Source of the DNA: Halorubrum sp. GN11_10-6_MGM | GTDB taxonomy: Archaea > Halobacteriota > Halobacteria > Halobacteriales > Haloferacaceae | Length of the DNA stretch: 50,312 bases | Reading direction: 5' to 3' | Assembly: GCF_005435165.1 (NCBI RefSeq) | Contig: NZ_SGUC01000022.1 | Coordinates: forward strand, 1-50,312 | Notes under the pieces: generated by a model | The model's input: only the letters and a program-made list of their open reading frames with translations | What the model was told of the DNA's origin: nothing | The model's database searches: none | Position numbers and translations under genes: made by a program | In this document: positions 1-46,330 of the stretch, piece after piece | How positions within the stretch are numbered: position 1 is the first letter of the stretch | How the letters are laid out: every line of letters begins with the position of its first letter

Positions 1-145
1 GTCCCACCCCGCACAGCCCCGCACCTCACGCCTCCCCAGCCTCGTCGGTCGGCCTCCGCGTTGCTCCGGCCGACCGACTCCCTCGCGCGTGCTGTCTCGC
101 GGTCGCCGGGGGCGACCGCTCACAGGCACGCGCCACCGCAGTTCG
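1..145 (+). repeat. Dispersed multi-hairpin element, copy A (left-truncated by window)
   Basis: The 3' half of a repeat seen seven times in this window. The conserved box CCTCACGCCTCCCCAGCCTC is at about 24-43. Stem 2 pairs 44-54 with 68-78 (11 bp, perfect). Stem 3 pairs 99-107 with 111-119 (9 bp, 3-nt loop). The conserved 3' end, with core CACGCGCCACCGC, is at about 127-139. The 5' half with stem 1 lies outside the window, or is missing. No protein-coding ORF in it is credible. A TATA-like CTTATG follows at about 147, ahead of mutL. Confidence 0.85.
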
Positions 146-8466: not shown

Positions 8467-8730
8467 GAACACCGCCGAAGCCCCAGTCGCGAGGCGGGCA
8501 GACGCTTGCTGCGCTCCTCGCTCGCGTTGCTCGCTGCGGTGCTTACAGCGCCTCTGCCCGCCTCGCGACTGCCCCTTCGAGTCCCGCACCGCCCGGCACC
8601 ACACCTCACGCCTCCCCAACCTCGTCGGCTAGCCTCCGCTTCGCTCCGGCTAGCCGACTCCCTCGCGCGACGCTCCTCGCGGTCGCCGGAGGCGACCGCT
8701 CGGAGGCGCGCGCCGTCTGTACTAGTTCGG
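8467..8730 (+). repeat. Dispersed multi-hairpin element, copy B
   Basis: A full-length copy between two convergent genes. The start box reads GAACACCGCCGAAGCCCCAG. Stem 1 pairs 8484-8502 with 8553-8571 (19 bp, perfect) around a loop containing GCGGTGCTTAC. Stem 2 pairs 8624-8634 with 8648-8658 (11 bp). Stem 3 pairs 8679-8687 with 8691-8699 (9 bp). The conserved CCTCACGCCTCCCCA box lies between stems 1 and 2. The 3' end is more diverged than in other copies (GCGCGCCGTCTG). No clear TATA box is seen 26 nt upstream of the start box, unlike copies C, D and F. Confidence 0.9.
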
Positions 8731-12709: not shown

Positions 12710-13177
12710 TTACTCCTCGAGGAGTTCGACGGCGTTCTCGTAGGTGTACGTGAACTCCTCGTCGATCTCGTCGCCGCGGTAGTAGTTCGCGAGGCGGCGG
12801 ATCTTCGACTCCGTGTTCTGGAGCGCGCGCTTGTTCTGGTGGTCCTGCCCGTTCTCCTCCATGTGCTCGCGCAGGCGGATCGCCTGCGACATGAGGTTAC
12901 GGAGGTCCTCGGGGATGTCGGCGTCGGCGTCGTGTTCCTCGAGAATCTCGGTGACCTTCTTGCCGGTCGCCAGCTTCACGTCGGGGACTGGGACGCCCTT
13001 GACGCCCTCGTCGCGCAGCTTGAGGCCGATGACGCTGGGGTCGTGGCCCTGCTCCGCCAGTTCGACGACGCGGGACTCGATGTCCTCGGCGTCGACGTCG
13101 CTCCACTCCGGGGTCTCGTCCGTCGCCGGCTTGTCCGAACCGGACGAACCGCGACGGCGCGTGTGCATTCGTGCCAT
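12710..13177 (-). CDS. rps15: 30S ribosomal protein uS15
   Basis: A 155-aa small-subunit protein of the archaeal S13/S15 type. The N-terminus is MARMHTRRRGSSGSDKP. An archaeal-specific N-terminal domain (SRVVELAEQGHDPSVIGLKLRDEGVKGVPVPDVK in outline) precedes the 16S-rRNA-binding S15 helices (EDLRNLMSQAIRLREHMEEN, HQNKRALQNTESKIRRLANYYR). It is the first gene of the operon that continues to the RecJ-like protein, Pcc1 and eS1. The upstream space (13178-13559) is shared with the divergent antiporter gene. Confidence 0.97.
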   Translation of the reverse strand: MARMHTRRRGSSGSDKPATDETPEWSDVDAEDIESRVVELAEQGHDPSVIGLKLRDEGVKGVPVPDVKLATGKKVTEILEEHDADADIPEDLRNLMSQAIRLREHMEENGQDHQNKRALQNTESKIRRLANYYRGDEIDEEFTYTYENAVELLEE

Positions 13178-13433
13178 TGTCTGTCTGGTTGGAACGGCAC
13201 AACCGCAACGTGACCGCGACTCCGCGCGGCGCGGCTACGGACCGCTCGCGGACCGAGCGATCCGACCGGACGGCCCGCGCGAGCGGGCCGCCCGACCGCG
13301 ACGCCGGAGGCGTCGGCGCACTGCTACATTCCCAAGCCGCGGGCGAAAGAGGCCCGGGCGAGTCGGATCTGCAGCTGTGCTGTTCCCGTACGATGAGTCG
13401 CCGGCGGGGTTCTTAAGCGTGTTCTTGTCGCGC

Positions 13434-15444: not shown

Positions 15445-15515
15445 TTTAGAAACAATTGCTGGCGGGTTGACGGCAAACACCTCCAAAGCTCCAGTCGGCT
15501 ACTTATAAATAGTCC
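15445..15515 (+). promoter_or_regulatory. Box-plus-TATA module in front of element copy C
   Basis: A degenerate start box, CAAACACCTCCAAAGCTCCAG-like, begins at 15474. It sits 26 nt after a TATA-like TTTAGA (15445-15450) and runs into TCGGCT-acttataaatag, a strong TATA box at 15503-15511. That second TATA is centred 26 nt before the true start box of copy C at 15532. The module thus seems to be a duplicated promoter/start region of the element. Confidence 0.65.
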
Positions 15516-15531
15516 ACTGCGGATCGACGAC

Positions 15532-15806
15532 GAACACCGCCAAAGCCCCAGCCGCGAGGACTCGATGCGCTCGCTGCGCGCCTCACTCGGTCACTCCGTT
15601 CCCTCGTTGCGGTGCTTACATCGCGCGTCTTCGTCCTCGCGGCTGCCCCTTTGAATCCCACCCCGTACCGCACGGCCCCGCACCTCACGCCTCCCCAGCC
15701 TCGTCGCTGGCGGTCTTCGCTTCGCTCGACCGCCAGCGACTCCCTCGCGCGTGCTGGCTCACGGTCGCCGATGGCGACCGCTCGCAGGCACGCGCCACCG
15801 CAGTTG
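15532..15806 (+). repeat. Dispersed multi-hairpin element, copy C, with its own promoter
   Basis: A full-length copy. The start box GAACACCGCCAAAGCCCCAG is at 15532-15551. Stem 1 pairs 15549-15561 with 15633-15645 (13 bp, perfect), and its loop carries GCGGTGCTTAC. The box CCTCACGCCTCCCCAGCCTC comes next. Stem 2 pairs 15703-15715 with 15728-15740 (13 bp). Stem 3 pairs 15762-15769 with 15773-15780 (8 bp). The 3' box CACGCGCCACCGCAGTTGG runs to about 15806. The TATA box at 15503-15511 predicts a transcript beginning at the start box. It fills most of the 511-nt space between the TRAM-like and PHP genes. Confidence 0.92.
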
Positions 15807-22440: not shown

Positions 22441-22696
22441 GTGCGGTGGCGCGTGCCTGTGAGGCCGCGTCGCGGCCGAACAGCACCGCGCGAGGGAGTC
22501 GCGAACGTAGTGAGCGACGAGGTTGGGGAGGCGAGAGGTGCGGTCGCGGTGCTGTACGGGTGGGACTCAAAGGGGCAGTCGCTGCGACCGCGCAGGCGAC
22601 GCAAGCACCGCAACGAGGGAACGAACGGAGTGAGTGACCGAGAGAGGCGCGCAGCGAGCGTGCGCGGTCGCAGCGACTGGGGCTTTGGACGTGTTC
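22441..22696 (-). repeat. Dispersed multi-hairpin element, copy F, with its own promoter
   Basis: A full-length minus-strand copy. Its start box GAACACGTCCAAAGCCCCAG begins at 22696 and reads leftwards. Stem 1 pairs 22661-22679 with 22576-22594 (19 bp, perfect) and its stem sequence is unrelated to those of copies C and D. Stem 2 is short here: GTCGC / GCGAC, 22499-22503 with 22515-22519. Stem 3 pairs 22463-22469 with 22471-22477. The 3' box ends near 22441. A minus-strand TATA (TTTATAAAC, about 22719-22727) is centred 26 nt before the start box. A plus-strand TATATAAAAAG at about 22428 points into the element from the other side. Confidence 0.92.
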
Positions 22697-22718: not shown

Positions 22719-22766
22719 TTTATAAACAACCAGCGGCAAGGCCACTCGATCAGTTATAAACAACCA
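22719..22766 (-). promoter_or_regulatory. Double TATA upstream of element copy F
   Basis: On the minus strand, GTTGTTTATAAAC (about 22719-22731) and GTTGTTTATAACTG (about 22751-22764) form two similar TATA modules about 32 nt apart. The proximal one is at the 26-nt spacing from the copy F start box. The rest of 22766-22920 shows no gene I can support. Confidence 0.6.
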
Positions 22767-35553: not shown

Positions 35554-35801
35554 CGCGGTGGCGCGTGCCTGCGAGCGCCCGAAGGGCGTGAGACAGCACG
35601 CGCGCGGGAGTCGCTGGCGGTCGAGCGAAGCGAAGACCGCCAGCGACGAGGTTGGGGAGGCGCGAGGCGGTCGCGGCCGGGCGGGACTCGAAGGGGCAGC
35701 CGGGAGGACGCCGCAGATGACGTAAGCACCGCAGCGAGCAGCGCGCGCGAGGAGCGCAGCGAGTGTGCGGCGTCCTCCCGGCTGGGGCTTCGGCAGTGTT
35801 C
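35554..35801 (-). repeat. Dispersed multi-hairpin element, copy E
   Basis: A full-length minus-strand copy filling most of the 358-nt space between aroD and the rhomboid gene. The start box GAACACTGCCGAAGCCCCAG begins at 35801. Stem 1 pairs 35766-35784 with 35697-35715 (19 bp, perfect), with a stem sequence different from the other copies. Stem 2 pairs 35610-35622 with 35635-35647 (13 bp, same as copy C). Stem 3 is GCGCCC / GGGCGT around 35574-35588. The 3' box (CACGCGCCACCGC) ends near 35554. No strong TATA is seen 26 nt upstream. Confidence 0.9.
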
Positions 35802-39701: not shown

Positions 39702-39960
39702 GAACACCGCCAAAGCCCCAGCCGCGAGGACTCGCGCGGTTGGCTGCGCTCCTCGTCACTCACTTCGCTCGTTCCTGTGGTGCTCACGTCGCCGAGCTTC
39801 GTCCTCGCGGCTGCCCCTTTGAGTCCCACCCCGCACCGCACAGCAACCGCACCTCACACCTCCCCAGCCTCGTCGACCTCCCTCTGCTTCGCTCCGGTCG
39901 GCCGACTCCCTCGCGCGTGCTGCTCGCGGCCAAGGGCCGCTCGCAGGCACGCGCCACCGC
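39702..39960 (+). repeat. Dispersed multi-hairpin element, copy D, with its own promoter
   Basis: A full-length copy in the 517-nt space before the MinD-like gene. The start box GAACACCGCCAAAGCCCCAG begins at 39702. Stem 1 pairs 39719-39731 with 39801-39813 (13 bp, perfect). Stem 2 is imperfect here: the left arm appears to have lost about 4 nt (around 39872-39878 versus 39896-39906). Stem 3 pairs 39926-39931 with 39935-39940. The 3' box ends at 39960. TATA TTATAAAT at 39673-39680 gives the 26-nt promoter spacing. Confidence 0.92.
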
Positions 39961-46179: not shown

Positions 46180-46330
46180 AGCGGTGGCGCGTGCCCGCGA
46201 TCGGCCGCTCGTGGCGGCCGTGAGCGGCACCGCGCGAGGGAGTCGGGCGCGACAAGGGCGACCGAAGGGAGCCCGCGGGACGCGCCCGACGAGGCTGGGG
46301 AGGCGTGAGGGGCCGTGCGGGGCGGTCGAT
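46180..46330 (-). repeat. Dispersed multi-hairpin element, copy G (5' half missing)
   Basis: A minus-strand partial copy between mfnA and the copper protein. The 3' box, stem 3 (46202-46208 with 46214-46220, 7 bp), stem 2 (46242-46251 with 46281-46290, 10 bp) and the CCTCACGCCTCCCCAGCCTC box are present. The stem 1 region and start box are absent. Stem sequences again differ from all other copies but pair perfectly. A TATA-like GTTTAAAC lies at about 46135-46142 beyond its 3' end. Confidence 0.85.

Follow-up and report, generated by a model that had tools for sequence, protein, structure and literature searches.

A class-wide family of modular, covarying intergenic repeats in haloarchaea

What are the multi-hairpin elements that recur between the genes of this Halorubrum contig, and why does their pairing persist while their sequence is rewritten? 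The window, meaning the whole 50,312-nt stretch analysed, is a contig from a draft genome of 3.32 Mb (the host genome). A sequence-only reading of it had listed seven copies, A–G, with three stems that differ between copies yet stay paired, and had proposed either selection on structure, as RNA or cruciform DNA, or an element that exchanges or copies its arms. All seven copies lie where that reading placed them, and in copies B, E and F the paired stem-1 arms that it quoted are exact reverse complements. The copies belong to a real, class-wide, covarying and polymorphic repeat family, a conclusion that is well supported.

Modular organization of the repeat

The element consists of two modules, an organization overlooked at first: alpha (~125 nt) contains stem 1, and beta (~115 nt) contains stems 2 and 3. 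On the G-rich strand, opposite to the orientation originally used, the order is beta, linker, alpha. Read on that strand, beta opens with GGTGGCGCGYGCC, passes through stem 3 and then stem 2, and ends with GAGGCTGGGGAGGCGTGAGG, and alpha runs from GGGYGGGACTCAAAGGGGCAG through stem 1 to CTGGGGCTTTGG and on to GTGTTC. The Halorubrum arrangement is a ~260-nt beta-alpha composite. Modules were located with covariance models R1, built from alpha and used for genome searches, and R2, a beta model with an imperfect stem-3 alignment that was used only for locating beta (Table 1). Five copies (B, C, D, E and F) are complete, with both modules; copy A (1–145) is truncated by the contig start, with beta alone visible, and copy G (46180–46330) is a solitary beta module without alpha, an arrangement also found at loci L050 and L066. 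Copies E, F and G are oriented opposite to the others. The 38-nt stem-2 hairpin of copy E is identical to that of copy C.

Table 1. Repeat modules and flanking boxes in the window
Copy	Feature	Position	Strand	Remarks
A	beta	24..139	-	R2 match E=2.4e-18; alpha would fall past the contig start
B	alpha (stem 1)	8467..8591	- (RNA-sense strand)	R1 127.5 bits, E=1.7e-22
B	beta (stems 2, 3)	8604..8720	-	R2 E=1.6e-15
C	degenerate second alpha end box ACACCTCCAAAGCTCCAG	15478..15495	+	outside the element
C	AT box TTATAAAT	15503..15510	+	29 nt ahead of GAACACC, TATA-like position
C	alpha	15532..15665	-	R1 E=1.5e-24; + strand start GAACACCGCCAAAGCCCCAG
C	beta	15683..15801	-	R2 E=6.8e-17
F	beta, short 21-nt stem-2 hairpin	22443..22538	+	R2 E=1.8e-7
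F	alpha	22556..22696	+	R1 E=6.6e-22
F	two AT boxes TTTATAA, 34 nt apart	22719..22760	+	alpha side
E	beta	35555..35667	+	R2 E=1.5e-13
E	alpha	35677..35801	+	R1 E=2.5e-21
D	AT box TTATAAA	39673..39679	+	29 nt ahead of GAACACC
D	alpha	39702..39833	-	R1 E=1.6e-20
D	beta	39852..39960	-	R2 E=3.4e-14
G	solitary beta	46181..46310	+	R2 E=1.8e-9; no adjoining R1 match

Distant genomes combine the modules in other ways: as single alpha modules (L176, L179–L181 and others), as head-to-head alpha pairs ~25 nt apart (L182, L190, L193, L201, L204 and L205), or as a beta-alpha composite facing a second alpha (L177 and L188). Outside the element lie AT boxes, and the alpha side often carries tandem 58–70-nt units that repeat the alpha end box; other copies carry such units at the place of copy C’s extra end box, and the 34-nt AT-box spacing of copy F recurs elsewhere. 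At the alpha-end flanks of L007, L033, L078, L109, L115 and L120, these units, each an AT box plus an alpha end box, are near-identical within a locus and differ between loci, and they look recently amplified.

Additional hairpins are found at some loci. An extra ~80-nt hairpin cassette (CGGAAGACGNTCCTGCTCGC...GCGGGCTGCGACTTCCG) lies between alpha and beta in some species (L096 and L124). In some Halorubrum copies, L110 and, around locus C in the relative G415, L257, several short perfect hairpins (~20–25 nt, e.g. AAAGGCGCGAAGCGCCTTT) are nested in both arms of alpha, like small mobile palindromes that target palindromes.

A covarying fold on the G-rich strand

Folding energies lie well below those of dinucleotide shuffles, with z-scores of -5.9 and -5.3 for the two strands of copy C and -5.2 for copy F. 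In an alignment of 54 Halorubrum alpha copies, the RNAalifold consensus contains 38 pairs, 26 of which have changes on both sides. Paired cells make up 97.1% of this alignment compared with 81.7% in shuffles, falling to about 28–44% when the partners are slid, and the covariation score is 0.436 versus 0.157 when shuffled. The Halorubrum-derived structure was also imposed on 40 copies that come from other genera (12 genomes), where 92.8% of cells are paired (67.5% shuffled) and the covariation score is 0.629 (0.175 shuffled), values biased toward the structure because this alignment was fitted to it. Covariation above controls, as expected of a structured RNA, is thus present in independent taxa as well.

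In the apical arm, 2-bp helices alternate with GA/GA internal loops. In both alignments the GA letters are 94–100% invariant, most of them in all copies, while the 2-bp helices covary. An unpaired GGG/GGG beside CAAAG/CUUUG is invariant in 54/54 Halorubrum copies, and two more GGG tracts precede this loop, the four-tract set being present in 47/54 and 30/40 copies of the two alignments; from this arrangement we infer that the tracts and the helix form a candidate quadruplex-duplex junction. Because the pairs covary while the GA/GA loops and the unpaired GGG stay invariant, structure is under selection in alpha, on one strand, the G-rich one. Selection on structure, as first proposed, is thus borne out by the 26 covarying pairs and the invariant loops, and the covariation extends to other families.

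The identity of the folded strand follows from its asymmetries. A GA/GA loop reads TC/TC on the complementary strand. In the 40 distant copies, 15 pairs have more G·U than A·C and 2 have the reverse (43:9 cells; p=0.002). The corresponding Halorubrum cells number 109:21, with 51 of the G·U contributed by one basal pair, and counted by pairs alone the Halorubrum excess rests on few pairs (9 versus 4, p=0.27). Across 88 stem-1 copies, from loci that overlap those of the Halorubrum alignment, the strand read originally shows 30 A·C versus 8 G·T; stem 2 alone is neutral (10 versus 9). The G·U excess and the strand-asymmetric GA/GA mismatches favor a single-stranded form of the G-rich strand, as RNA or ssDNA, over a cruciform. 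Strand-biased cytosine deamination may account for part of the G·U excess, though not for the GA/GA loops. It is thus the other strand, not the one originally read, whose structure is preserved, and the cruciform DNA then offered as an option is contradicted by the strand asymmetry of the mismatches. The strand of the loops is not absolute, since in a few copies (L070, L113, L115 and L092) the apical arm is inverted with respect to the stem base. On host contigs C119, C131 and C156, R1 matches both strands at the same place, and these are probably further copies with an inverted apical arm.

Abundance and taxonomic distribution

The covariance-model search that had been suggested identified 106 alpha matches in the host genome; 91 have E <= 2.1e-10, and E-values of the element reach 1e-28. 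A complete Halorubrum congener contains at least 150, and copy number ranges from 0 to at least 150 among relatives. Within the host’s family, 90/119 genomes have matches, and across the haloarchaeal class the repeat occurs in 178/242 genomes and 61/74 genera, a spread that went unnoticed in the window alone. Distant genomes can be equally rich, with 81, 76 and 52 copies. In a phylum sample of 148 genomes, R1 found no match outside the class, and all 18 matches fell within the host’s order. Among named genomes, the beta box occurs mostly in Halorubrum and additionally in Halobellus captivus and Halorussus litoreus.

Carriage as virus or plasmid cargo was considered and rejected: the beta box is absent from IMG/VR viruses in an exact-box search and from a phage collection, and the plasmid search returned a single weak match. 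No Rfam family matches any element tested, for one element up to E=10, in agreement with the earlier impression of a repeat outside known families. The open-access literature on haloarchaeal repeats, archaeal REPs, archaeal G-quadruplexes and vesicle RNAs contains no description of the family. The repeat would thus be among the most abundant non-coding features of haloarchaea, apparently undescribed, with up to at least 150 copies and a presence in 61 of the 74 sampled genera.

Turnover of copies and hairpin cassettes

Comparisons of orthologous loci provide evidence for turnover at two levels. First, copies are present or absent between relatives. The copy B site of Halorubrum xinjiangense lacks the element, with 119 rather than 400 nt between the anchors, and copy B is also missing from G416, G248, G415 and G262, which makes five relatives, although one of these last four may be the same species as H. 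xinjiangense. Copy C, together with its flanking AT boxes, is missing from one relative (G248), and G415 has a hairpin-laden copy in the same position. Copies thus come and go between relatives, five of which lack B and one of which lacks C. No target-site duplication is definable at the empty sites, where the surrounding intergenic DNA is too diverged for exact boundaries.

Second, the hairpins turn over as whole units. At 12 orthologous loci where both species carry the element, the flanks are 85–92% identical, whereas stem similarity is close to that of random pairs of copies: 0.51 versus 0.47 for stem 2, 0.49 versus 0.59 for stem 3, and a marginally closer 0.70 versus 0.64 for stem 1 (p=0.07). 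Stems at orthologous loci are thus no more alike than those of random copies, which argues for wholesale replacement. Similarities of the different modules are nearly uncorrelated (Mantel r 0.03–0.11), and the same 35-nt stem-2 hairpin recurs without change in 10 copies from 6 genomes. From such sequence patterns we infer cassette exchange between copies, with occasional arm recombination. The earlier suggestion that the element exchanges or copies its arms agrees with the 12 loci and with the inverted apical arms described above; posed as an alternative to selection on structure, it appears instead to operate alongside it. With a sequence that changes and a pairing that persists, the repeat offers a natural experiment on hairpin-cassette exchange.

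Genomic context

Genes were called with a codon-usage script, and by these calls no copy overlaps a gene. Compared with 330 other intergenic gaps, the 92 copies placed in this way are enriched in convergent gaps (38/92 versus 77/330, p=9e-4) and depleted from divergent gaps (11/92 versus 109/330, p=4e-5). A gene 3’ end lies on the alpha-end side in about 70% of cases, and likewise in two further sets. AT boxes accompany 61% of copies on one side and 59% on the other versus 3% of background windows and are commonest in convergent gaps, and they therefore belong to the element. On the alpha side, TTATAA starts 29 nt before GAACACC in 33/102 copies and 26 nt before it in 11/102, a putative archaeal TATA-box position for a transcript of the C-rich strand. 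Such a box would drive transcription of the C-rich strand, whereas the conserved fold belongs to the G-rich one, and the two observations conflict. The beta-side AT box, at -14/-15, is too near for a start at the beta boundary.

Two further possibilities were considered and rejected. A guide RNA or an associated gene finds no counterpart among the neighboring proteins, which include no recurring family and scatter over 156 clusters, the largest with 4 members. A replication-strand or segregation signal is at odds with the lack of strand skew in a complete genome (71 versus 79, p=0.31) and with near-random spacing.

Relationship to known repeats

The family was compared with several known classes of dispersed repeats. 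bcr1 of the Bacillus cereus group and BOX of pneumococcus are dispersed intergenic repeats that fold with conserved structure; unlike these, the haloarchaeal repeat belongs to another domain of life, has no sequence in common with them, and has its own two-module architecture of GA rod and G tracts. Bacterial REP/BIME/REPIN elements, which are associated with RAYT, share more features with it: intergenic position, more than 100 copies, palindromes, singles and head-to-head pairs, mosaic composites and a strand-specific hairpin. Differences lie in its ~115–130-nt units with internal-loop architecture, the lack of a noticeable constant foot tag of the GTAG or CGTC type, its class-wide occurrence in archaea, the wholesale replacement of stems, and its independence from a Y1 transposase. 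A REP is a 20–40 bp unit with a GTAG or CGTC tag at its foot (PMC3733652). The haloarchaeal palindromes are high-copy, intergenic and often in inverted pairs, as REPs are, but alpha is ~125 nt long, its flank reads GGG[TC]GGGACT(C/G)AAAG with no tag on that strand, and some genomes rich in copies lack the Y1 transposase.

This last point rests on searches for PF01797, the Y1 domain. It is absent from genomes with 76 (G045), 81 (G207) and 15 (G118) copies, and the copy-free genomes tested have 4–10 matches, except one with none. Within ~1.5 kb of ten Y1 loci the element boxes are essentially absent (one 8-mer match). Dependence on a Y1 transposase of the IS200/REP kind was rejected, copy number not being tracked by Y1 presence. 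No mobilizing enzyme was found by seeking recurrence among neighbor proteins or Y1 through PF01797, and the element itself encodes no transposase, as noted from the outset.

The regional comparison is with the PATE, MITE and SMR elements of Haloquadratum, of which PATEs are haloarchaeal and have near-terminal palindromes (PMC3119063). These resemble the repeat in being haloarchaeal, non-coding, mobile and palindromic, without a recognized target duplication, and the mini-hairpins inserted into the palindromes of the repeat recall the SMR habit. PATEs derive from IS605 ends; no such relation is seen for the repeat, and its covarying strand-specific fold is a feature not described for PATEs in the passages of PMC3119063 considered. 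Judged from the boxes near the ten Y1 loci and from the neighbor proteins, neither IS605-type ends nor a Y1 or TnpB partner accompanies the repeat. MITEs are defined by terminal inverted repeats and a target duplication; here AT boxes flank both sides and no duplication is definable. The closest kind is the bacterial REP/BIME, and the regional analogue is the haloarchaeal PATE/MITE/SMR group (PMC3119063). The family fails the defining REP tests and, as far as tested, those for PATEs, and its fold is new.

Possible nature of the family

The family probably represents class-wide haloarchaeal non-coding intergenic repeats of modular build, BIME-like in layout and dynamics, not in sequence or machinery, that are selected for a fold of the G-rich strand, spread non-autonomously and have their cassettes refreshed. 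Spread would proceed through an enzyme that is probably not a Y1/IS200-type transposase, and ectopic gene conversion with occasional arm recombination among ~100 copies would refresh the hairpin cassettes. The folded strand may be recognized by a protein, somewhat more plausibly as RNA than as ssDNA, and the preference for convergent gene ends would fit a tolerated or useful site between transcription units. A bolder version, which we consider improbable, would make alpha (with beta) a mobile RNA of archaea comparable to SINEs. Its transcript, ~260 nt long, would combine a GA-paired rod with a G-quadruplex core of four tracts; a haloarchaeal protein would bind it, and new copies would be made from it in intergenic DNA. 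The element would keep 100–150 copies per genome in the richest lineages and occur in most genera of the class, with its cassettes shuffled between copies.

Several alternatives bear on the same observations. The copies may be host-domesticated RNAs, either small RNA genes or 3’-region elements for processing, pausing or termination that bind a conserved haloarchaeal protein, with dispersal old and incidental. The RNA-like internal loops, the G·U excess, class-wide conservation, the preference for convergent ends and the fixed-spacing AT boxes belonging to the element would all suit such a role, as would a Haloferax hairpin with 59% termination (PMC7237163). A copy number of 0 to at least 150 among relatives, presence that is polymorphic between close species and the lack of a recurring neighbor gene family speak against it, and we regard it as doubtful while worth weighing. 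It is unlikely that the repeats are REP/BIME or PATE elements proper, in which the hairpins would be ssDNA substrates of a Y1 HUH transposase (RAYT or IS200/IS605 TnpA) and the fold an enzyme-recognized ssDNA. Apical GCGAAGC-type loops and tandem GA pairs are very stable in DNA too, and high copy number, intergenic location, convergent-end preference and head-to-head pairs point the same way, as does the existence of haloarchaeal PATEs with near-terminal palindromes (PMC3119063). Set against this are the PF01797 distribution, with the domain missing where copies number 76, 81 and 15 and present in all but one of the copy-free genomes, the near absence of boxes around Y1 loci, and the length of alpha compared with 20–40 bp REPs (PMC3733652).

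The remaining two alternatives dispense with a selected fold. Template switching or inter-arm conversion might keep correcting the palindromes, which would account for near-perfect arms that change wholesale, for apical arms sometimes inverted between stems and for the short perfect hairpins inserted into alpha in some copies. Such correction would erase the GA/GA mismatches, yet these are strand-asymmetric and kept in practically all copies of two alignments while neighboring 2-bp helices covary; the invariant loops contradict this explanation, and we give it very little credence. Ordinary GC-rich intergenic hairpins, whether chance palindromes, which are many in a 71% GC genome, or terminators, are refuted: the copies have boxes in common along ~260 nt, match with E-values down to 1e-28, fold with z-scores of -5 to -6 and have homologues in 61 genera.

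The repeats allow a test of non-autonomous spread without a Y1 transposase, for which genetically tractable haloarchaea could be used. They would also add a new fold, of RNA or ssDNA, that is marked by invariant motifs of GA/GA and G tracts.

Additional observations

The window contains another structured haloarchaeal RNA, an S15-Halobacteria ribosomal-protein leader (RF03143, 66.4 bits) at 13318–13389 on the minus strand, upstream of the minus-strand gene at 12710–13168; it differs from the repeat in having an Rfam family. The ends of draft contigs C116, C130, C129, C169, C131 and C156 lie inside or beside a repeat copy. As several draft contigs start or stop in this way, the family probably breaks assemblies and would explain such interruptions.
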